NCBI GenBank assembly: GCA_902618025.1
Contig: CACMYY010000001.1
Location: forward strand, 124,001-188,000
Direction of reading: 5' to 3'
DNA: 64,000 nt
Source: an uncultured SAR116 cluster alpha proteobacterium
Lineage (GTDB): Bacteria; Pseudomonadota; Alphaproteobacteria; Puniceispirillales; Marisalimonadaceae
Part shown: piece by piece, positions 31,225 to 43,583 of the stretch
Numbering within the stretch: position 1 is the stretch's first letter
How the letters are laid out: every line of letters begins with the position of its first letter
The notes under the pieces: generated by a model
The model's database searches: none
Told to the model about the DNA's origin: nothing
Seen by the model: the letters and a program-made list of their open reading frames with translations, nothing else
Position numbers and translations under genes: made by a program

Positions 31225-32295
31225 TCAATCAATTTTGTTTAAATTTAAAAATTTGTTACTTTTAAACTTTTTTAGCTTACCATCAACTTTATCAATAAAA
31301 AGAACTGCTATCTTTTCTTTTTCAGCTATTTTTAATCCTTCCATTCTTCCTAAAGCTAAAAGGGCTGTAGCCCACCCATCGGCTTTCATTGAATTATCAT
31401 GGATTACTGTTACTGATTTAGTTTTATGTGTAATTGGTTTCCCAGTTTTAGGATTTATTATGTGTGAATATCTTTTCCCATTTTCAGTAAAAAAATTTTT
31501 ATAATCTCCTGATGTTGCTAAACCTTTGTTTGTTATGTTAACAATTTCTTTAATTAATTTTACGTCTAAATTTGGATTTTCTATGCCAATTATCCAATTT
31601 TTCCTTTTTTTATTGTGACCCTTGGTAAGAATGTCTCCTCCAATATTGATTAAGTAATTTTTTACTCCTAGTTGATCTAATTTTCTTCCAATTAAATCAA
31701 TTCCAAATCCTTTTCCAATAGGTGATAGATTAATCGTTAAATTTTTATTTTTTTTTGTAAGCTCTTTATTATCGTAATTAATACTTAAAAGTGATCTTTG
31801 TCCTACCAAAGATAGTGTATTTTTAATTTGCTGTTCTGTAGGTACCGTTTGAATTTGTTTGCTTTTATAACCAAATCCCCAAAGTTCAATTATAGGATCA
31901 AGTGTTATGTCAAAAAAACCATTGGTATTAACATTAATATTGGTTGCAGTTTTGAAAACTTCATTTAATTCATTTGAAATTTTTATTGGTGTAGTTTTAT
32001 TAAATTTATTAATTATACTAATTTCAGAATTTTTATCCCAATTAGATAAAATCTTATTTGTTTTTTCAAGAGTATCTCGAACTTCTTTTTCAATTTTTTT
32101 AATTTTCAATTTTTTTGGAACATTTACTAAATCAATGATATAATAAGTCCCCATTGTGTTTCCTTTTAATTGAGCATTGTAATTTTTTTCTTGAGAGCAT
32201 GAAAAAAAATTAATACAAATAGTCAAAATTAGAAAAAAAAATGAAAATTTATTCTTTGAAGTAATAATTATTTTATCTGTTTCCAGTTTTACCAT
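31225..32295 (-). CDS. apbE: FAD:protein FMN transferase (ApbE lipoprotein)
   Basis: ApbE attaches FMN covalently to a Thr in NqrB and NqrC. The 356-residue product has a lipoprotein-like N-terminus (hydrophobic run ending at Cys33 in NFFSCSQ), which places it on the outer face of the inner membrane. Family blocks are GTYYIIDLV, the LSPIGKGFGIDLIG FAD-binding segment, INIGGDILTKG and HIINPKTGKPI. It is divergent from nqrA with 180 bp between the starts, and its targets lie in the neighbouring operon. Confidence 0.94.
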   Translation of the reverse strand: MVKLETDKIIITSKNKFSFFFLILTICINFFSCSQEKNYNAQLKGNTMGTYYIIDLVNVPKKLKIKKIEKEVRDTLEKTNKILSNWDKNSEISIINKFNKTTPIKISNELNEVFKTATNINVNTNGFFDITLDPIIELWGFGYKSKQIQTVPTEQQIKNTLSLVGQRSLLSINYDNKELTKKNKNLTINLSPIGKGFGIDLIGRKLDQLGVKNYLINIGGDILTKGHNKKRKNWIIGIENPNLDVKLIKEIVNITNKGLATSGDYKNFFTENGKRYSHIINPKTGKPITHKTKSVTVIHDNSMKADGWATALLALGRMEGLKIAEKEKIAVLFIDKVDGKLKKFKSNKFLNLNKID

Positions 32296-32475: not shown

Positions 32476-33819
32476 ATGTATAAATTCAATCTTAAGAAAG
32501 GTCTGAATATTCCTGTTGCAGGGGTACCAAAACAAGTTGTAGAAGATACAAAAATTCCAAAATCGGTTGCAATTCTAGGTCCTGATTATAATGGTATTAA
32601 ACCAAAAATGTTAGCAAATGTAGGAGAAAAGGTAAAAAGAGGTACACCTCTTTTTTGTCACAAAGATAATCCAGATGTGTTTTTTGTTTCACCCTGTAAA
32701 GGTTTTGTAAAAGAAATTAATAGGGGAGAAAAAAGAGCACTTTTGAGTGTTGTTATTGATATAGAAGATGTAGAAGATAAAGGGATTGATGTAAAAAAAC
32801 TTCACTCGAAAGAAAAATCAAAAAAAGAATTTACAAAAAAATGCCTATTTAGTAGCGGCTTATGGACCTCCTTTTTAACAAGACCTTATTCAAAAATTCC
32901 TGATAGTCAATCTGAACCATCTTCAATTTTTATAACTGCTATGGATACAGAACCACTCAGCCCAGATGCAGATATTATTATTATGAATGATCTTAAATCA
33001 TTTGAAGAAGGCGTAAAACGCATTTCACTTTTGACTAATGGTAATGTTTTCATATGTAAAAAAGAAGGTAGTGAAATTAAGGTCAATAATTTTGAAACAT
33101 ATGAATTCGCTGGACCACATCCTGCCGGTTTAAGTGGCACCCATATGCATTTTTTAGACCCACCAAATGCCAATAAGACAGTTTGGTCAATAAATTATCA
33201 AGATGTGATTGCGATTGGAAAATTATTTATTAATGGCTATGTTGATATCTACAGGACTATTTCAATATCTGGTCCTTTGTCTAATAACCCAAGATTAGTC
33301 AAGACTATTGTTGGTGCATCTCTTGATGATATTCTTGAAGGAGAATATAATAAAACTGAGGATTGCAGAATAATTTCTGGATCTATTCTTTCAGGCTTTC
33401 ACGCGACTGGAGACATGGCTTATTTAGGAAAATATTCTAGGCAGATTACGATTATAAAAGAAGATAAAGAAAAACATTTTTTTGGTTGGATTAAACCTCA
33501 GCCTAATAAATATTCAGTTATGCCTGTCCTTTTATCAGCTTTTAGTTTTTTTAAACTATTTAATCTAACCTCAAATTTAAATGGAGGAAGAAGAGCAATG
33601 GTTCCAACAGGTGTTTTTGAAACTTTAATGCCACAAGATTTTTTGCCAACACAATTACTTAGATCTCTTTTGGTAATGGATACCGACGTTGCTCAATCAT
33701 TAGGTGCGCTAGAACTTGATGAAGAGGATGTTGCATTGTGTACCTTTGCTTGTCCTGCAAAATATGAATATGGTACTGCTCTAAGAGACAGTTTAACAAA
33801 AATTGAAAAAGAAGGTTAA
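32476..33819 (+). CDS. nqrA: Na+-translocating NADH:quinone reductase subunit A
   Basis: 447 residues of the peripheral, quinone-associated subunit of the sodium pump. Clear blocks are KKGLNIPVAGVPKQ at the N-terminus, GPDYNGIKPKMLANVGEKVKRG, a PHPAGLSGTHMHFLDP segment and GWIKPQPNKYSVMP. It is first of six tightly packed genes (gaps of 3-11 bp or overlaps) encoding the whole complex. An AGAGG element lies upstream of the ATG. The presence of Nqr implies use of a sodium gradient, in line with a marine habitat. Confidence 0.97.
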   Translation: MYKFNLKKGLNIPVAGVPKQVVEDTKIPKSVAILGPDYNGIKPKMLANVGEKVKRGTPLFCHKDNPDVFFVSPCKGFVKEINRGEKRALLSVVIDIEDVEDKGIDVKKLHSKEKSKKEFTKKCLFSSGLWTSFLTRPYSKIPDSQSEPSSIFITAMDTEPLSPDADIIIMNDLKSFEEGVKRISLLTNGNVFICKKEGSEIKVNNFETYEFAGPHPAGLSGTHMHFLDPPNANKTVWSINYQDVIAIGKLFINGYVDIYRTISISGPLSNNPRLVKTIVGASLDDILEGEYNKTEDCRIISGSILSGFHATGDMAYLGKYSRQITIIKEDKEKHFFGWIKPQPNKYSVMPVLLSAFSFFKLFNLTSNLNGGRRAMVPTGVFETLMPQDFLPTQLLRSLLVMDTDVAQSLGALELDEEDVALCTFACPAKYEYGTALRDSLTKIEKEG

Positions 33820-33822
33820 TTA

Positions 33823-35040
33823 ATGTCATTAAGAAACTACTTCCATTCTCTAGAACCTCATTTTGAAAAAGGTGGAAAATATGAAAAGTATTATCCGATT
33901 TTCGAAATGGTTGAGACAATATTTTTTACAAGTAACACAGTTACAAAAGTTGCTCCCCACGCAAGAAGCTTTGTAGATATGAAAAGGGTAATGACGTATG
34001 TTGTCATTTCTACTATACCTTGTATCATATGGGCGCTTTACAACACTGGTTTACAGACTAATAGTGCTTTGGCTACTGTAGGTATTGAAGCTCAATCAGG
34101 ATGGCGTATATCATTGCTTCAATTTACTGGCTTAGGAATTAGTCCGGAGAGTTTAGTATCGAATGTTTTTCATGGATTATTGTATTTTCTACCAATTTAT
34201 TTAACAACTTTGATAGCTGGAGGTATCTGTGAAGTAACATTTGCTACTATTAGAGGTCATGAAGTAAATGAAGGTTTTTTAGTTTCTTCTATGTTATTTG
34301 CATTAACCTTGCCTGCATCTACTCCGTTGTGGCAGGTAGCACTTGGTATTGCCTTTGGTGTAGTAGTTGGAAAAGAGGTTTTTGGTGGAACTGGTAAAAA
34401 TTTTCTTAATCCAGCACTCACAGGTCGTGCATTTTTATATTTTGCTTATCCTGCTTACATGTCAGGTGACTCAATCTGGACTCCAGTTGATGGATATTCA
34501 GGAGCTACTTCTCTCGGAATAGCTGCTGCCGAAGGATATGAAAGTTTAAGTAATTATGGAATAACATGGGCGGATGCTTTTTTTGGAACTATTCAAGGTT
34601 CACTTGGTGAAACGTCTACGCTTGCATGCGCAATAGGTTTGGTTTTCCTTCTTTTAACAAAAATTGCAAACTATAGGATGGTTGTAGGATGTCTTTTAGG
34701 AATGATCATTTTTTCTTCATTTCTTAACTGGGTAGGCTCAGACACAAACCCAATGTTTAGTATGCCTTGGTATTGGCATCTAGTTATTGGAAGTTATGCT
34801 TTTGGATTAGTTTTTATGGTTACTGAACCTGTGTCTGGGAGTCATACAAACCTTGGACGATACATATATGGCGCATTAATAGGATTTATGGTTGTAATGA
34901 TAAGGGTGTTAAATCCTGCATTTCCTGAAGGTATGATGTTGGCAATTTTATTTGGAAATATATTTGCGCCATTGATTGATCATTTTGTTGTTATGGCAAA
35001 TATTAAAAGAAGGACAAAATTTAATGTCCAAACCCAATAA
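33823..35040 (+). CDS. nqrB: Na+-translocating NADH:quinone reductase subunit B
   Basis: 405 residues with about ten transmembrane helices; NqrB forms the main sodium-conducting core and binds riboflavin and a covalent FMN. The FMN attachment site is the Thr of DGYSGATS, an exact ApbE target motif. KEVFGGTGKNFLNPALTGRAFLYF and MVTEPVSGSHTN are conserved. It starts 3 bp after nqrA. Its last 17 bp overlap the start of nqrC. Confidence 0.97.
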   Translation: MSLRNYFHSLEPHFEKGGKYEKYYPIFEMVETIFFTSNTVTKVAPHARSFVDMKRVMTYVVISTIPCIIWALYNTGLQTNSALATVGIEAQSGWRISLLQFTGLGISPESLVSNVFHGLLYFLPIYLTTLIAGGICEVTFATIRGHEVNEGFLVSSMLFALTLPASTPLWQVALGIAFGVVVGKEVFGGTGKNFLNPALTGRAFLYFAYPAYMSGDSIWTPVDGYSGATSLGIAAAEGYESLSNYGITWADAFFGTIQGSLGETSTLACAIGLVFLLLTKIANYRMVVGCLLGMIIFSSFLNWVGSDTNPMFSMPWYWHLVIGSYAFGLVFMVTEPVSGSHTNLGRYIYGALIGFMVVMIRVLNPAFPEGMMLAILFGNIFAPLIDHFVVMANIKRRTKFNVQTQ

Positions 35041-35815
35041 TATTTTAACTAAATTTAAAAATATGCCAGTTGATGGCATGACTAAAACTTTATTTGTTGC
35101 AATAACACTATGTCTAGTTTGTTCTATGGTTGTTTCTTTTGCTGCTGTAAATTTAAAAGAAGTTCAGGAAGTTAACAAAGCAGTTGATAAACAAAAAAAT
35201 ATTCTTCAAGTTGCTGGACTTTATTATGAAGGGATTGATGTCAAAAAGTCATTTTCTTCATTCGAACCAATAGTTGTTGACTTAAATCAGGGTAAATTTA
35301 CAAATCGTTTTAATCCTTTAACTTTTGATGATAGAAAAGCTGCACAAGATCCTCAACTTAGTACGTTATTAAAAGAAGATCCAGCGTCAATAGGAAGGCG
35401 AACCAACTTTGCAACTGTCTATCTTCTTAAAAAAGAAGATGGATCTTTGGACAAGATTATACTTCCAATACATGGGTATGGTTTGTGGTCGACATTATAC
35501 GGTTTTATAGCTTTAGAAAAAAATGGTAATGATATTTTTGGTCTTCAATTTTACCAACATGCAGAAACACCCGGATTAGGCGCTGAAGTAGATAATCCTA
35601 AATGGAAAGCTCAATGGAAAGGAAAGAAACTTAATAATAAAAATGGTGAACTGATGATTACAGTAGCTAAAACTCAAAAGTATAAAGATCATCATATTGA
35701 TGCTTTAGCTGGAGCTACTCTTACTTCAAATGGTGTTGATAATTTAGTTAAATTTTGGATGGGTGAGTCTGGTTTTAAAAAGTTTTTAATAAATTTACAA
35801 AATGGAGAAGCTTAA
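35024..35815 (+). CDS. nqrC: Na+-translocating NADH:quinone reductase subunit C
   Basis: 263 residues: one transmembrane helix near the N-terminus and a periplasmic FMN-binding domain. The second covalent FMN site is the Thr in [13 protein letters not shown] near the C-terminus, and GLWSTLYGF and [11 protein letters not shown] are family blocks. The frame is open from 34976, but the ATG at 35024, preceded by an AAGAAGGA site, gives the normal N-terminus MSKPNN and is preferred. It overlaps nqrB by 17 bp and nqrD by one base, consistent with coupled translation. Confidence 0.95.
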
Positions 35816-36468
35816 TGTCTCAGACAAGGAAACAACTACTTACTGATCCTTTGGTGGATAATAACCCTATAACACTTCAGGTTTTAGGAATTTGTTCTGC
35901 TTTAGCAGTAACGTCTTCTTTGAATGTTGCGTTTGTTATGTCATTAGCTGTGATAGCGGTTTGTGGATTTTCATCTTTATTTATTTCATTTTTAAGACAT
36001 TATATACCAAATTCAATTAGAATTATTGTTCAGATGGTTATAATTGCATCCTTGGTAATTCTAGTTGACCAAATCATAAAAGCATATGCTTATGAGATTT
36101 CTAAAACATTATCAGTTTTTGTAGGTTTAATTATTACAAATTGCATTGTTATGGGAAGAGCAGAAGCTTTTGCAATGAAAAACAAGCCATTTGAATCGTT
36201 TGTAGATGGTGTTGGAAATGGTCTAGGATATAGTCTTTTATTGATGAGTGTTGGAGTAATTCGTGAGCTTTTTGGATCTGGTTCGTTATTTGGAGTGATG
36301 ATTTTTGAACCTGTGAGCAATGGAGGGTGGTATGTTCCAAACGGTTTGTTACTTCTTCCTCCCTCAGCTTTTTTTATTATAGGATTTATTATTTGGGGTG
36401 TTAGAACATGGAAAAAATCACAAGTTGAGGTCCGTGAATACAAAATACAAACACTAGAGGAACATTAA
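35815..36468 (+). CDS. nqrD: Na+-translocating NADH:quinone reductase subunit D
   Basis: 217 residues, six transmembrane helices. With NqrE it forms the inverted pair that binds an iron centre in mid-membrane. The two ligand cysteines are visible: Cys27 in LGICSAL and another in [14 protein letters not shown]. The [25 protein letters not shown] segment is conserved. It is coupled by overlapping stop/start codons to nqrC and nqrE. Confidence 0.97.
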
Positions 36469-37076
36469 TGGAAGGTTTGATTTCTTTAGCTGTAAAAGCA
36501 ATTTTTGTAGAAAATCTAGCTCTATCTTTCTTTTTAGGGATGTGTACCTTCATTGCTGTATCTAAAAAAATATCAACAGCCATTGGCTTAGGTATTTCAG
36601 TAATGATAGTTCAATCAATTACAGTTCCCGCTAATAATATTATACTTTCATATTTGCTAAAACCAGGTGCATTAGCTTGGGCAGGATTTCCAGACATTGA
36701 TCTAACTTTTCTAGGACTTATTTCTTACATAGGTGTTATAGCTGCGTTGGTTCAAATTCTAGAGATGATATTAGACAAATATTTTCCACCACTATATAAC
36801 GCACTTGGAATATTTCTTCCCTTAATAACTGTAAATTGTGCAATATTAGGAGGTTCACTATTTATGGTTGAAAGAGATTATAATTTTTCAGAAGCTACAA
36901 CTTATGGGATAGCCTCAGGTTTTGGTTGGGCCTTGGCAATTGCCACTATGGCAGGTGTTAGAGAAAAACTAAAGTATAGTGACATACCTGACGGCTTACA
37001 AGGACTTGGAATTACTTTTATAACTGCCGGGCTTATGGCAATGGCTTTTATGTGTTTTTCTGGTGTTAAACTTTAG
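36468..37076 (+). CDS. nqrE: Na+-translocating NADH:quinone reductase subunit E
   Basis: 202 residues, six transmembrane helices. The partner iron-ligand cysteines are Cys26 in [12 protein letters not shown] and the one in [12 protein letters not shown]. The [18 protein letters not shown] block matches the family. It is homologous to NqrD in inverted topology and is translated from an ATG overlapping the nqrD stop. Confidence 0.97.
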
Positions 37077-37087
37077 AGGATTAAGAA

Positions 37088-38308
37088 ATGGATACATTTG
37101 TACTCGGTATAACTCTTTTTACAATGATAGTGCTTACTTTAGTTTCAATCATCATATTTGCTAGAAGTAAGCTAGTTTCATCAGGAGATGTAAATATTAC
37201 CATTAATGGTGAAAAAACTGTATCTGTTCCAGCAGGTGGTAAATTATTACAAACTCTTGCAGCAGAAAAACTTTTTGTTCCATCGGCTTGTGGAGGAGGC
37301 GGAACTTGCGCTCAGTGTCGAGTTAAAATTCACTCAGGTGGTGGAGCTATTTTGCCTACTGAAGAGAGTCATATTAACAAAAGAGAAGCGTCTTGTGGGG
37401 ATCGTTTATCATGTCAAGTTGCTGTAAAACAAGATATGGAAATCGAAGTTCCAGAAGAAGTCTTTGGTGTTAAAAAATGGAGATGTAAAGTTAGAAGCAA
37501 TGACAACGTTGCTACTTTTATAAAAGAATTAATATTAGAACTTCCAGAAGGTGAAGATGTCAACTTCAGAGCTGGAGGATATATACAAATTGAGGCGCCA
37601 AGTTATTCATTATCATATAAGGATTTTGACGTTGCAAAAGAATATCATGAAGATTGGGATAGATTCAAAATATGGGATTTTAACGCTGAAAGTAATGAGC
37701 CAATAGAAAGAGCTTATTCTATGGCAAATTGTCCTGATGAAAAAGGTATTGTAATGTTAAATGTAAGAATAGCCTCTCCTCCACCAGGCTCTACAGGAAT
37801 TCCGGCTGGAAAGATGTCTTCATATATTTTTAACTTAAGACCTGGTGATGAGGTGGTTATTTCAGGTCCTTTTGGTGAGTTTTTTGCTAGAGAAACTGAT
37901 AAAGAAATGGTTTTTATTGGTGGTGGTGCAGGGATGGCACCTATGAGAAGCCATCTTTTTGATCAATTTAATAGAATTAAAACTAAACGTAAAGTTACCT
38001 TTTGGTATGGTGCTAGATCAAAAAAAGAAATGTTTTATGTAGAGGATTTTAATAAATTAGCAAAAGAGAATTCAAATTTCAGTTGGCATGTAGCGCTCTC
38101 AGATGCAATGCCTGAAGATAAATGGGACGGCCTTACTGGATTTATTCATAATGTTTTATATGAACAATATCTTAAAGACCATCCTGCACCAGAGGATTGC
38201 GAATATTACATGTGTGGCCCCCCCATGATGAACCAATCAGTTATTAATATGCTTCTTGATCTTGGTGTGGATAGGGAAGATATAATGCTTGATGATTTTG
38301 GGGGATAA
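37088..38308 (+). CDS. nqrF: Na+-translocating NADH:quinone reductase subunit F
   Basis: 406 residues: the NADH-oxidising entry subunit. Order of domains: N-terminal membrane anchor (about 4-26), ferredoxin-type [2Fe-2S] domain with [12 protein letters not shown] and a distal Cys (LSCQV), FAD-binding domain with ERAYSMAN, and NADH-binding domain with [13 protein letters not shown] and the C-terminal [13 protein letters not shown]. It closes the nqr operon. An AGAGGATTAAGAA ribosome-binding stretch precedes it. The NuoL-like gene begins 97 bp downstream. Confidence 0.97.
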
Positions 38309-38405
38309 ACTTAATCATTAATTAATCAAAGTATTAAACTGATTTTTTTTAGTTACATTCATACCTTTATATTATATTTTAATATAAAAAATAAAGTTGT
38401 GAATC

Positions 38406-40097
38406 ATGGAAATATTATTATTTATTTTCCCATTACTAAGTTTTTTATTGTTTCAGTTTTCAAGTAAAAAAATAAAAACTGAATTTTTATATGCTTTGCA
38501 TATAATTTTAATAGCTATTTCATTTATTTTAAGTTTGTATGTTTTTTTTAAAATATTAAATTTGGATAAGGATGTACCACAATATTTTTACACTTTATTA
38601 AAATTTGATCATCTATTTATAGACTGGTATTTAAGATTTGATATCCTTGTTTCTAGCATAATAATTATCGTAACATTTATTGGGTTGATATTATCAATAT
38701 ACTCAATAACTTCAATAGATGACTTTTCAAAAAAATTTAAAATAAATAGTTATTTATCATTATCAATTTTTAGCTTATTAGTAGTAATTACTTCAAATAA
38801 CTTGATACAATTTTTCTTAGCTTGGTATTTGATAATTTTATCCTCTTATTTGATGGCTAAAATTTCAAAAAATCAAATAGATAATAGAAACAATTTTTTT
38901 CAAAATAGATTTTCTGATCTTTGTTTATTTTTAAGTTTGTATTTTTTTTATAAACTTTCAAATTCAATAAATTTAGACGTTATTTTTAAAAGTTTTCCAA
39001 TTGTTGAAAATAATTCAACTGTTTCCCACTTAACTTTTAGTAATTTGGATATAGTAATTTTTACTTTATTTTTTTCTTTTTTATTAAGATGTCGTCAATT
39101 TTATATCTCGAATTCTAGGTATGATTTGTTAAGCTTTAATTCAATTTCTTACTCACTTGTTTTGTTTGGACTATTTTTACCTCTTGGACTTTATATAATT
39201 TTACGCTTTTTAACTTTAAATCAAATTAGTTCCGATTTTTTTAATGTATTGTTATTAATGGGTACAACGTTTATTTTTATTTTTTCAATTTTATTAACCA
39301 GAACATATAATTTAAAAAAAATACTTTTATATATTGCTTCTGCTCAATTTGGCATTTTATTAATTGCAGTTGGTTTAAAATTATTTAGTGCAGTAGTTTT
39401 TTATTTTTTTACATCCGCACTATCTTTATTAATTTTATCTTTAAGTTTTGGAGTCATTTCATCCCAATTAAATAATGAACAAGACATTAGGAAAATGGGT
39501 TATCTCATTTTCAAATGTCCATCGATATTTTTGTTTATTTTAATTGGCTTCACTTCTTTGTTAGGGATACCTTATTTCTCAGGATTTTATTCTAATCAAT
39601 TAATTTTCTTTGAACCTTCACTTATTAATAAAGAAAGTTATTTTCTAATCTTTACTTATTGTTTTCTTTATACTTTTATTATTAGCTATATTTCATTCAA
39701 GATTATTTTAGTTGTATTTTTAGGTCAAAATAATTGTGATATCCATTTATATAATAAAATAAAAGAAAGATCATTTTTTTTAAGATATACTTTATTTGTT
39801 TTGTCAATTTTAATAATTTTTTCTGGTTGGTATCTGAATAATTTGTTTTCAGGTAATTCTGGCGAAAATTTATGGAGTTTGGCAATAATAGGTGATACTA
39901 ATTCTACTATAAATCATAATCATGATAATAAATCTTGGCTTTTTGAAACTAGATATATTTTTTGTTATTTTGGAATTTCTTTTGCTTTTTTAAATTATCT
40001 TATTATACCGAAATTAGGAAATAATTTAAAACTTAAAAATATTAAATTATTTAAATATTATCTTAAATATTTTACTTCATATGATTTTAGTAGATAA
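38406..40097 (+). CDS. Highly divergent NuoL (ND5)-like membrane protein lacking proton-path residues
   Basis: 563 residues, strongly hydrophobic, about 14 helices. By eye it aligns along its length with the Complex I subunit NuoL: DWYLRFDILVSS (NuoL FDGLS-type segment), NNLIQFFLAWYLIILSSYLM (NuoL DNLxxxFxGWEGVGLxSYLL), an NRFSD segment (NuoL NRVGD), ILLYIASAQFG (VLAYSTMSQIG), QDIRKMGYL (identical core) and GIPYFSGFYSNQLIF (GxPxFSGFFSKDEIL). Residues known to conduct protons are replaced: the WE glutamate is Tyr, the HAFFKA lysine is Ser, and the SKDE lysine is Asn. The long C-terminal lateral helix is absent. The intact frame implies it is kept by selection, but it should not pump by the known mechanism. 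It sits between nqrF and birA. Confidence 0.82.
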   Translation: MEILLFIFPLLSFLLFQFSSKKIKTEFLYALHIILIAISFILSLYVFFKILNLDKDVPQYFYTLLKFDHLFIDWYLRFDILVSSIIIIVTFIGLILSIYSITSIDDFSKKFKINSYLSLSIFSLLVVITSNNLIQFFLAWYLIILSSYLMAKISKNQIDNRNNFFQNRFSDLCLFLSLYFFYKLSNSINLDVIFKSFPIVENNSTVSHLTFSNLDIVIFTLFFSFLLRCRQFYISNSRYDLLSFNSISYSLVLFGLFLPLGLYIILRFLTLNQISSDFFNVLLLMGTTFIFIFSILLTRTYNLKKILLYIASAQFGILLIAVGLKLFSAVVFYFFTSALSLLILSLSFGVISSQLNNEQDIRKMGYLIFKCPSIFLFILIGFTSLLGIPYFSGFYSNQLIFFEPSLINKESYFLIFTYCFLYTFIISYISFKIILVVFLGQNNCDIHLYNKIKERSFFLRYTLFVLSILIIFSGWYLNNLFSGNSGENLWSLAIIGDTNSTINHNHDNKSWLFETRYIFCYFGISFAFLNYLIIPKLGNNLKLKNIKLFKYYLKYFTSYDFSR

Positions 40098-40115
40098 TGG
40101 TTTGAAGGTAAAATT

Positions 40116-40856
40116 TTGACAAATTTTAATCTTAAAATTATAGAAACGTGTTCTAGCACAAATGACATAGCTATAGAATATGCAAAAAAAGGATTGCCAG
40201 AGGGTAGTTCATATTTATCTTATTTACAGACTAACGGACGTGGCAGAAATAGTAATCAATGGAAATCAATGAAAGGAAATCTTTTTTTGTCAACTATATT
40301 TAGGCCAAAAATTAGTAAAGTTAATTGGCATCAACTATCATTGGTAATTAGTTTGTCAATAATAGAAACACTAATTACCTTAGGTTTAGATAAAAGTAAA
40401 ATTGAATTAAAATGGCCTAATGATGTACTTGTTCATAAAAGTAAAATTTCAGGTGTTTTATTAGAATCTGTTGATGATTTTATTGTTGCTGGAATTGGAT
40501 TAAATGTTTTAAAAAAACCACAAAGTGAAATAAAATGGAAAACTACTAAATTGCATGATCATATAAATAAAGATTTTTCTCTTAAATATATTGCTAATGT
40601 AATATTAAAAACAATATATAAAAATTACGCCATTTGGGAAGATAAGGGACTTATTTTTTTTAAAAAAAAGATAAATGACAGTATGCATAATATTAAAAAT
40701 AAAATTGTTATTAAATTAAACTCTCAATCTAACTACATTAATGGTATTTTTTTAGGCATAGGAGATAATGGAAGTTTGAAGATTAAAGTTGACAATAAAT
40801 TTTTAGAATATTACTCAGTTGATAGTTTTTTTTTTCCAGATGAAGAATTATTATGA
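40116..40856 (+). CDS. birA: Biotin--[acetyl-CoA-carboxylase] ligase (short form)
   Basis: Attaches biotin to the carboxyl carrier protein of acetyl-CoA carboxylase. The 246-residue protein has ETCSSTNDIA at the N-terminus, the biotinoyl-AMP loop TNGRGRNSNQW, KWPNDVLVHKSKISGVLLE and GIGLNVL. The N-terminal DNA-binding domain of E. coli BirA is absent, so it should not act as a repressor. The start is TTG with GAAGG upstream. It overlaps coaX by 4 bp. Confidence 0.94.
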   Translation: MTNFNLKIIETCSSTNDIAIEYAKKGLPEGSSYLSYLQTNGRGRNSNQWKSMKGNLFLSTIFRPKISKVNWHQLSLVISLSIIETLITLGLDKSKIELKWPNDVLVHKSKISGVLLESVDDFIVAGIGLNVLKKPQSEIKWKTTKLHDHINKDFSLKYIANVILKTIYKNYAIWEDKGLIFFKKKINDSMHNIKNKIVIKLNSQSNYINGIFLGIGDNGSLKIKVDNKFLEYYSVDSFFFPDEELL

Positions 40857-41647
40857 TATTAGCAATTGATTGTGGCAACACAAATACTGTCTTTGCTTTA
40901 TACACCACAAATAATCAAATTAAACAATTAACAAGTTGGAGAATTGATAACGATTCTAAAAGGACCGCAGATTTGTATTATCCTTGGTTATTAAAGATGT
41001 TTGAAGTATCAAAATTTGATATAAAAAGTGTTACAGGAGTATCTATAGCATCAGTTGTGCCAGAAACACTTTTAAATATAAAATCTTTAATAAAAAAATA
41101 TTTAAAAGTCAAAACATTGATTGTTAATGAAAATATTCTTAATTTGGGAATAAAAGTAAATATTGAAAATCCAAGAGAAGCAGGCGCTGATAGATTGGTT
41201 AACTCGTATGCTGCTGCGAAATTAAAAATTTCACCAGCGATCATAATTGATTTTGGAACAGCCACAACTTTTGACATTGTTGGGAAAAATGGTAGCTATA
41301 ATGGAGGTATAATTGCTCCTGGTGTGAATTTATCTCTAGAAGCTCTTTATTTAGCTACAGCCAATTTACCAAAAGTGTCACTTAGACCTTTGGCAGATAA
41401 GAATTCCTCTATAATTGGCAAAAATACCATAAGCGCAATGGAGTCCGGTATTTTTTGGGGGTATGTGTCAATGATTGAGGGTTTGATTGAAAAGATAAAA
41501 TCTGTTAATAAATTCTCTGACTACAATGTTGTAGCAACTGGTGGATTAAGTAATTTATTCAAAAAATCGCTTAAAAGTATTGATGTCATTGTAGATGATT
41601 TAACTTTGATTGGATTAGTAAAGTTATACTTAAATAATGAAAATTAA
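40853..41647 (+). CDS. coaX: Type III pantothenate kinase
   Basis: Phosphorylates pantothenate, the first step of CoA synthesis. 264 residues with the ASKHA-type phosphate loop LAIDCGNTNTVFAL at the start, SWRIDND, ADRLVNSYAA, IIDFGTATTFDIV and GGIIAPGVNLSLEAL. Type III enzymes resist feedback inhibition by CoA. The ATG overlaps the birA stop, an arrangement conserved in alphaproteobacteria. Confidence 0.95.
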   Translation: MILAIDCGNTNTVFALYTTNNQIKQLTSWRIDNDSKRTADLYYPWLLKMFEVSKFDIKSVTGVSIASVVPETLLNIKSLIKKYLKVKTLIVNENILNLGIKVNIENPREAGADRLVNSYAAAKLKISPAIIIDFGTATTFDIVGKNGSYNGGIIAPGVNLSLEALYLATANLPKVSLRPLADKNSSIIGKNTISAMESGIFWGYVSMIEGLIEKIKSVNKFSDYNVVATGGLSNLFKKSLKSIDVIVDDLTLIGLVKLYLNNEN

Positions 41648-41670: not shown

Positions 41671-43338
41671 ATGTATTGGGATAAATCTGATTTATTATTT
41701 TTGCCTGTTGGTGGCTCTGAAGAGATAGGAATGAATGCAAATTTATACCATTATGATGATAAATGGATACTAGTTGACTTTGGAATTTCATTTCCTGATG
41801 AGACAGACCTGGGTATTGATGTTTTATTACCGGATTATGAATTCATCAAATCTTTAGAAAATAAATTTTTAGGTATAATTTTAACACATGGGCATGAAGA
41901 CCATATAGGAGCAATACCATATTTTGCAAATTATATAAAATGTCCTATTTGGGGCACACCTTTTACTATTGCTCTTTTAAAAAGGAAATTAAAAGAAAAT
42001 AATAAAAAAGATAAAATTACATTAAAAACTTTAAATATAGATGAAATATTTGATATTGGTCCCTTTAAATTAAAAGCTGTGAGAACTTCACATTCCATTC
42101 CTGATCCTGTATCAATTTTAATTTCTACGAAAACAGGCAATATATTTCATTCAGGAGATTGGAAACTAGACAGTCCTGCTAATATCAATGAAAACATCAA
42201 TATTAATGATTTTCGATCTTTAGGTAATGATGGGATTTTGGCAATGGTTTGTGATTCTACTAATGCTTTAGTAGAAGGTAGAACACCATCAGAGGATTTT
42301 GCTTATAATGGATTGATGGAAACCATTCCTAATGTAAAAGGAATGGTACTAGTCACTTGTTTTTCTTCAAATATTAGTAGAATTAAATCATTATTGGATA
42401 TAGCTAAAAAATCTGATAGATCAGTTTTAATTATAGGTAGAGCGCTATTAAGGTCAATTGATGCTGCAAAAGAGGTTGGAATTTTAGATAATTTACCTGA
42501 TTTATTATCTGTTAATGACCTTAATTTAATTCCTAGATCTAACGTTTTAATAATTTGTACTGGATCTCAGGGCGAGCCAAATTCAGCTTTAAACAGAATT
42601 TCAAGAGATGCCGATAAAAATATTAAATTAAAAAAAGGTGACACAATAATTTTTTCCAGCAGGAAAATACCTGGAAATGAAAATGCTATATCAAAAGTTC
42701 AGACGCGGTTTCTAGAGATGGGTGTTGAAATAATTACAGATGATGACAAAAATGTTCATGTTTCTGGTCATCCTTCAAAAGATGAATTAGTAGATATGTA
42801 CTCTTACATAAAGCCAAAAATTTCTATTCCAGTGCATGGTACAAGAGAGCATATAAATGCACACGCGGAACTAGCTCACCAATGTCAGGTACCATTAATT
42901 ATAAAACCAAAAAATGGTGATATTATAAAGTTAAATGGTTCTTCTCCAAAAGTTATTTCAAAAATGGATTTTGTTAATCATGTGTATGATGCTGGTGAGA
43001 TTGTTCCTGTAGATAATGAGAGATTTACTGTTAGAAGACATTCATTATGGAATGGATTTGTAAGTATTTCAGTTGTGATTAATGAAGAAGGTTATTTAAT
43101 TGCTCCTCCGCAGATTTCACAAATAGGGGTATCAGATAGTAACAAAATGGACAATTTTTTAATTAATATTTCTTTAAAAATTGAAAGTTTGATAGATGAG
43201 AATATGTTAAGTATATCAAAGTCTGACGATGACATTATTAATAAAATAAAAAAGATTATTAGAAGTGAGTTTAAATCAACTTTTTTAAAAAGGCCTGCAG
43301 TAAGCGTCCATGTCAACAGAGTTAACAAAGAAAAATGA
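41671..43338 (+). CDS. rnj: Ribonuclease J
   Basis: Metallo-beta-lactamase/beta-CASP exo- and endoribonuclease acting in mRNA decay and rRNA maturation. 555 residues: the N-terminal metal site LTHGHEDHIGA (HxHxDH), HSGDWKLD, VCDSTNALVEGRT, then the beta-CASP region (CTGSQGEPNSAL, FSSRKIPGNE) and the late metal ligand in IPVHGTREH. The C-terminal domain is complete. Its last 4 bp overlap the DUF1467 gene. Confidence 0.95.
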   Translation: MYWDKSDLLFLPVGGSEEIGMNANLYHYDDKWILVDFGISFPDETDLGIDVLLPDYEFIKSLENKFLGIILTHGHEDHIGAIPYFANYIKCPIWGTPFTIALLKRKLKENNKKDKITLKTLNIDEIFDIGPFKLKAVRTSHSIPDPVSILISTKTGNIFHSGDWKLDSPANINENININDFRSLGNDGILAMVCDSTNALVEGRTPSEDFAYNGLMETIPNVKGMVLVTCFSSNISRIKSLLDIAKKSDRSVLIIGRALLRSIDAAKEVGILDNLPDLLSVNDLNLIPRSNVLIICTGSQGEPNSALNRISRDADKNIKLKKGDTIIFSSRKIPGNENAISKVQTRFLEMGVEIITDDDKNVHVSGHPSKDELVDMYSYIKPKISIPVHGTREHINAHAELAHQCQVPLIIKPKNGDIIKLNGSSPKVISKMDFVNHVYDAGEIVPVDNERFTVRRHSLWNGFVSISVVINEEGYLIAPPQISQIGVSDSNKMDNFLINISLKIESLIDENMLSISKSDDDIINKIKKIIRSEFKSTFLKRPAVSVHVNRVNKEK

Positions 43339-43583
43339 GTTTAGTATCATATATAGTGGTTTTTCTAATGATTTGGATGATTTCTTTTTTTATTTCACTT
43401 CCAATAGGTGTTAAAGTTTCTGAAAATCATAAAGAAGGAATGGCAAACTCAGCTCCTGACAAAGCTAATGTAAAAACTAAGGTAATTATTTCTTTTTTAA
43501 TATCGTTTGTGCCAGCTTCTTTAATTTATGTGGTGATTGAAAAAAAATTATTTGATAAGTTTTTTAACAGTTATATTTTATAG
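43335..43583 (+). CDS. DUF1467 family membrane protein
   Basis: 82 residues with two transmembrane helices. The N-terminal half (YIVVFLMIWMISFFISLPIGV) is the family signature: a helix ending in a Leu-Pro-x-Gly-Val turn, followed by a polar loop and a second helix. Members occur in alphaproteobacteria downstream of birA-coaX-rnj, exactly as here. Function is unknown. It is translationally coupled to rnj through a 4-bp overlap. Confidence 0.85.
   Translation: MSLVSYIVVFLMIWMISFFISLPIGVKVSENHKEGMANSAPDKANVKTKVIISFLISFVPASLIYVVIEKKLFDKFFNSYIL

Follow-up and report, generated by a model that had tools for sequence, protein, structure and literature searches.

The window, a stretch of 64,000 nucleotides from a SAR116 (Puniceispirillales) genome, carries between its Na+-NQR operon and birA a gene, here called X, that is NuoL by descent and fold, not by function. 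The nqr operon has taken the place that nuo holds in sister genera, all 16 full-length orthologs of X have lost core residues of the proton path, and the gene is under selection. On balance we favour reading X as a retired, plugged NuoL whose proton wire was dismantled and which is kept as a non-conducting membrane accessory, with Na+-NQR as the leading guess for its partner.

X occupies the place of the nuo operon tail

Upstream of nqr lies apbE (flavin transferase; 31225..32295, minus strand); all other features given here are on the plus strand. Within the nqrA-F operon (32476..38308), nqrA and nqrF (at 37088) are recognised by Pfam, and the genes at 33823, 35024, 35815 and 36468 are presumably nqrB, nqrC, nqrD and nqrE, as named from operon order. 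After an AT-rich intergenic stretch of 97 bp (38309..38405) follow X (38406..40097), a conserved gene for a birA-like biotin ligase (40116..40856), coaX (type III pantothenate kinase; 40853..41647) and rnj (ribonuclease J; 41671..43338), in the order nqrF-X-birA-coaX-rnj. A small ORF (43335..43583), which we take to be DUF1467, ends the conserved block and is found at an equivalent position in sister genera; the two genes beyond it, presumably rpiB and then glyA, keep the same order in relatives.

At all four loci examined in two sister genera (genomes G040, G042, G047 and G049), nuoL and further antiporter genes directly precede birA-coaX-rnj. The ORFs of G047 run nuoH-I-J-K-L-M-N ahead of these three genes, names that we assigned from the sequences and take as presumptive. 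Since nqrA-F stands where the sister genera have nuo, nqr replaced nuo in place, and X sits at the position of the nuo tail.

The AT-rich element in front of X is similar in most close orthologs and absent from junctions without X, in a comparison of 12 X loci and 4 loci lacking X that left L015, L017, L018 and L019 aside. It is possibly a promoter; a scan of the nqrF-X intergenic stretch for promoter consensus sites returned no more of them than shuffled sequences did.

The remainder of complex I was sought through NuoD and NuoH in 40 genomes of the genus, which are 52-100% complete and whose named members are SAR116 single-cell genomes and MAGs. At such completeness a single absence means little, but absence from 39 of 40 is clear. 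Only G012 gave matches: this MAG, whose listed contamination is 5%, carries nuo genes, with NuoD and NuoH on contig C96. On its NuoL contig (C68), CoaX and RnJ are 37-40% identical to those of the window, against 67-68% on the contig of G012 that carries X. The complex I genes of G012 are thus probably contamination or mis-binning, and we treat C68 as foreign. A complex I hidden elsewhere in the cell was rejected on these grounds, the 39 absences and the foreign look of C68.

X is a NuoL-derived membrane protein

The stop-free frame of X encodes 563 amino acids at 20.9% GC, so that the intact frame of 563 codons described by an earlier sequence-only reading was borne out in ORF, strand and length. 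About 15 transmembrane (TM) helices are predicted. Pfam finds Proton_antipo_M (79.9 bits), and among 24 NCBIfam profiles NuoL (TIGR01974) scores highest at 211.4 bits, about half the curated cut-off of 407.5 bits. The top PDB sequence match is the Paracoccus NuoL (8e-39). An AlphaFold model built from X orthologs alone (mean pLDDT 68.7, pTM 0.77) was used for the fold search; Foldseek ranked complex I ND5/NuoL chains first, and superposition on 7aqw_L aligned 535 residues with a Z of 35.0, in agreement with a NuoL/ND5 fold. When 18 NuoL rows were included, a second model rose to a pLDDT of 79.2; this model leans on NuoL. Profile, predicted fold and map position all trace X to NuoL.

Phylogeny was less informative on the origin of the gene. 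In a tree of 12 of the 16 X and 21 of the 38 order-level NuoL sequences, X fell outside all NuoL, the stem leading to it carrying 3.6 changes per column, and the tree program gave a warning of long-branch joining. AU tests rejected neither X as sister to the NuoL of the family (p-AU 0.215) nor X with the other NuoL of the order (0.088), and the best BLAST match lay in sister genus g4 for only 11 of 16 X. For a SAR116 origin of X we rely on chromosomal place, not on the tree.

Two other families were considered. MrpA and MrpD share Proton_antipo_M, and the predicted fold of X resembles MrpD too (Z about 32), but X scores at most 47 bits on Mrp profiles, far below NuoL, and lies outside the Mrp locus. 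The genome has its Mrp-type locus on another contig (C6), where three antiporter proteins retain the H...H...K type motif. In this locus (L115, 6957-14270) these three proteins, which are D-like, are accompanied by the B, C and E subunits and by a protein of DUF4040 type; no full-length MrpA occurred among the ORFs scanned there. With the NuoL profile far better and the Mrp locus elsewhere, X was rejected as an Mrp subunit A or D. DabB of the DabA-DabB (DAB) inorganic-carbon systems is a NuoL-like protein outside complex I. A search for its partner DabA (PF10070) gave matches in 2 of 14 controls and in none of the 40 genus genomes, and X was likewise rejected as a DabB.

Core residues of the proton path are lost in all orthologs

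We compared the 16 full-length X (16 genomes; 559-565 codons) with 38 order-level NuoL, using E. coli K-12 NuoL as residue ruler and leaving L149 out of the NuoL counts. All 38 NuoL retain Glu144, Arg175, Asp178, Lys229, His254, Lys305, His334, His338, Lys342, Lys399 and Asp400. In X, the TM5 Glu and TM7 Lys pair is absent throughout (0/16 each): the Glu144 place is Tyr in the window copy (codon 141, 38826..38828; Y9/Q6/H1 across orthologs) and the Lys229 place is Arg in all 16 (codon 228, 39087..39089). His254 of TM8 is Leu in the window copy (codon 253, 39162..39164; L, F, Y or I in 16/16), and on TM11 both His338 (Ser in the window copy) and Lys342 (Leu in the window copy) are gone in every ortholog (codons 337-341, 39414..39428). 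At the Lys399-Asp400 place on TM12 the window copy reads Asn-Gln (codons 397-398, 39594..39599), with Lys399 kept in 5 of 16 (N10/K5/H1) and Asp400 in none. Arg175 and Asp178 are retained by all 16 (codons 168-171, R..D, 38907..38918), Glu359 by 15, Lys305 by 12, including the window copy (K304, 39315..39317), and His334 by 9, the window copy having Tyr. Of the charged or His columns that 18 NuoL conserve, 30 align to X; among these, 3 persist in no fewer than 15 of the 16 X, and 19 have been lost. Because the core losses are shared by 16 of 16 orthologs at residues that 38 of 38 NuoL keep, they are not due to chance.

The C-terminus is altered as well. The last residue of X aligns to residue 546 of the 613 of E. 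coli NuoL, and fold alignments stop at residue 533-534; X has neither the lateral helix nor TM16. The sequence-only reading had noted the motifs AWYL, FYFFTSA, YSNQ (within FYSNQ) and QDIRKMG, all of which lie at the places it gave, and the absence of the lateral helix, to which TM16 can now be added. Its claim that every recognisable proton-path residue is lost was too strong: alignment with E. coli NuoL upheld it for Glu144, His254, His338, Lys342 and Asp400, and it does not hold for the residues that persist in all or some orthologs, nor for the conservative change of Lys229 to Arg.

Several polar places of the path have become hydrophobic in X, with Leu, Phe, Tyr or Ile at the His254, Lys342 and Thr257 positions, which argues for closing of the path. 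These changes count against a cavity that was rebuilt, not plugged, with X acting as a transporter or channel for a non-proton substrate. Such a role would suit the 72 near-invariant columns in which X differs from the NuoL residue, among them the motif NNC(N/D)IH.YNK (442-451), presumably on the cytoplasmic side as in NuoL topology, together with R230, which adds another Arg to TM7 (15/16). It would also fit the partial retention of Lys305 and Glu359. No neighbour gene suggests a substrate, however, and we regard this reading as unlikely.

We take Glu132, Arg163, Asp166, Lys216 and Lys385 of Nqo12 to be Glu144, Arg175, Asp178, Lys229 and Lys399 of E. coli. In liposomes, protons pass through isolated Nqo12 that lacks the transverse helix, a conduction that E132Q speeds and K385I blocks; the available text of the same source describes an ion cluster of Glu132/Arg163-Asp166/Lys216 (PMC11496545). 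His254 is placed at the junction of the Lys229, Lys305 and Lys342 routes in the accessible part of another study (PMC13358369). X might still conduct H+ or Na+ by a re-routed path, as a regulated leak or a Na+/H+ exchanger beside Na+-NQR, given that the Arg175, Asp178, Lys305 and Glu359 equivalents are mostly retained and that, in the portion of a B. subtilis study available, E144Q or K229A in a lone NuoL had little effect in an mrpA mutant (PMC4938563). The loss of His254 and Lys342 from all orthologs speaks against this, as does the block of conduction by removal of one key Lys, be it K385I in Nqo12 or K235M in Nqo13 (PMC11496545), and the genome has its separate Mrp-type antiporter locus. 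We consider a re-routed conductor improbable. An alternative ion path could conceivably use the remaining Lys305, Glu359 and Lys399 (5/16), but judged by its residues X would not conduct protons.

X is maintained by selection

Across the 16 orthologs, omega of X was 0.173. In sets of 16 genomes, birA gave 0.125-0.127, with some sequences partial, and nqrF gave 0.013-0.014; nine SAR116 NuoL gave 0.039. X thus exceeds nqrF about 13 times and SAR116 NuoL about four times, and the constraint has therefore been relaxed: X is under about the same constraint as birA, and the pumping NuoL are held roughly four times more tightly. Fixing omega at 1 lowered the log-likelihood from -16042.1 to -16808.8, a difference of 767 units. 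The six closest pairs (dS 0.21-0.33) gave omega values of 0.22-0.34. In a neutral simulation of four close pairs, a pN/pS near 1 and 19-28 stops were expected, against an observed 0.25-0.32 and no stops.

A decaying pseudogene, open by chance, would go with the fast evolution of X, its GC of 20.9% and its absence from some lineages. This reading was rejected by omega, by the likelihood difference and by the missing stops, to which the 16 full-length frames of nearly equal length can be added, and its probability is negligible. Hence the earlier suggestion that the gene is still used holds, and the dN/dS proposed as its check, obtained among relatives, is far from the value near 1 of a decaying gene.

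X follows nqr, but nqr does not require X

X was found in 22 of the 40 genus genomes, with 16 copies at full length and 6 at contig ends (G010, G013, G021, G023, G034 and G035); poor single-cell amplification of a 21% GC gene may account for the six cut copies. Presence or absence could be judged in 24 of the 40. All 16 full-length X lie immediately behind nqrF and ahead of birA. By contrast, nqrF is directly followed by birA, with X absent, in G039 (100% complete) and G011 of the genus and in G043 and G044 of another genus in the same family. Permanent linkage to nqr, raised as a question by the sequence-only reading, was therefore found in one direction: X always comes with nqr, whereas nqr comes without X in these four genomes. 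A contig scan with two peptide patterns, limited in reach, returned 19 loci with 17 SAR116-type X genes; the other candidates, L074 and L075, match at 19-23%, lie in clusters from different phyla and were rejected.

A tree built on BirA+CoaX from 28 genomes, with several weak forks, split those lacking X into two lineages within the Nqr clade; G012 and G013, which carry X, fell among them. Most simply, X would be ancestral in the Nqr clade and have been lost twice. The existence of two Nqr lineages without X implies that X is not an obligatory Nqr subunit.

The Nqr proteins themselves were compared between the four X-less and 18 X-bearing genomes. Eleven residues were common to the former and absent from the latter (NqrA 6, NqrC 4, NqrF 1), and none of this kind occurred in NqrB, NqrD or NqrE. 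Seven control sets gave 39 exclusive residues for G043+G044+G012, 9 for G011+G039+G012, 3 for one set and 0 for four sets. Since the X-less lineages and G012 are related, the 11 residues are most simply explained by shared descent, and co-adaptation of Nqr with X found no support. Between the window genome (G000) and G029, NqrF is nearly identical (pN 0.002) and CoaX 89% identical, whereas X is 46% and BirA 60% identical. When the G029 locus (L017) is set against window positions 37088-41647, the X-birA block looks as if exchanged as a unit by recombination.

These data bear on two ways in which X could belong to Na+-NQR. As an obligatory extra subunit or assembly factor, X would be expected beside nqrF, as found in 16 of 16 full-length cases, and it has been seen solely in Nqr-bearing SAR116. 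The nqrA-F operons without X in four genomes, one of them 100% complete, the lack of exclusive residues in NqrB, NqrD and NqrE, and the divergence of X between two genomes of nearly identical NqrF make this very improbable. A dispensable, lineage-specific seventh subunit, with the plugged NuoL bracing or regulating Nqr in a hybrid respiratory complex, seems to us rather doubtful. That Nqr is a partner of X at all is a tentative guess from gene order; the role as partner or assembly factor of Nqr suggested by the sequence-only reading is neither established nor refuted by the Nqr comparison or by an omega about 13 times that of nqrF.

Relation to earlier work

Replacement of nuo by nqr has been described for SAR116 LGC2-C and LGC2-D, where a nuoL adjoins the nqr operon (Roda-Garcia et al. 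2021, PMC8547437). As far as the available text of that study goes, this nuoL is almost certainly the same gene as X, and the gene itself is not new. The study calls it nuoL; relative to the text available, the residue analysis, the selection test and the absence from sister lineages are added here. For the cultured SAR116 strain IMCC1322, the accessible text of another report gives NDH-1 as present and no Nqr (PMC11813361). Our literature search, which covered little of the subscription journals and bioRxiv, found PMC8547437 as the only work joining SAR116 and nuoL, and none on the severed wire, the missing helix, or the selection on X and its patchy loss.

Compared with NuoL/ND5/Nqo12, X is alike in profile, antiporter fold, place by birA-coaX-rnj and the Arg175/Asp178 equivalents. 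It differs in standing in a cell without complex I, in lacking the TM5 Glu, TM8 His, TM11 His/Lys and TM12 Asp, in its Arg for the TM7 Lys, and in the missing lateral helix and TM16.

A proposed retired NuoL and its significance

We propose that, when nqr replaced the nuo operon at the same chromosomal place in a SAR116 ancestor, X was the NuoL left behind. Once complex I was otherwise gone, a bare NuoL would let protons leak, and a stranded copy would therefore have had its wire dismantled through loss of the TM5 Glu, the TM8 His, the TM11 His/Lys pair and, in most orthologs, the TM12 terminal Lys. The change of the TM7 Lys to Arg beside the kept Arg and Asp may be read as a permanently locked ion cluster, and the lateral helix would have been lost with nothing left to clamp. 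We infer that avoidance of the leak drove the loss of the wire. Selection on a protein without a wire argues for a non-pumping scaffold or accessory job, and X would most likely be a membrane scaffold or accessory beside Na+-NQR.

Nature has in effect supplied a set of knock-outs of the proton wire in complex I: many species carry X, a folded NuoL whose wire is cut, and sister genera have the working subunit. The orthologs of X point to what survives of NuoL when pumping is not selected, namely Arg175, Asp178 and the QDIRKMG region, and they offer a testable case of the fate of a pump module after its complex has been replaced, in abundant bacteria of the surface ocean.
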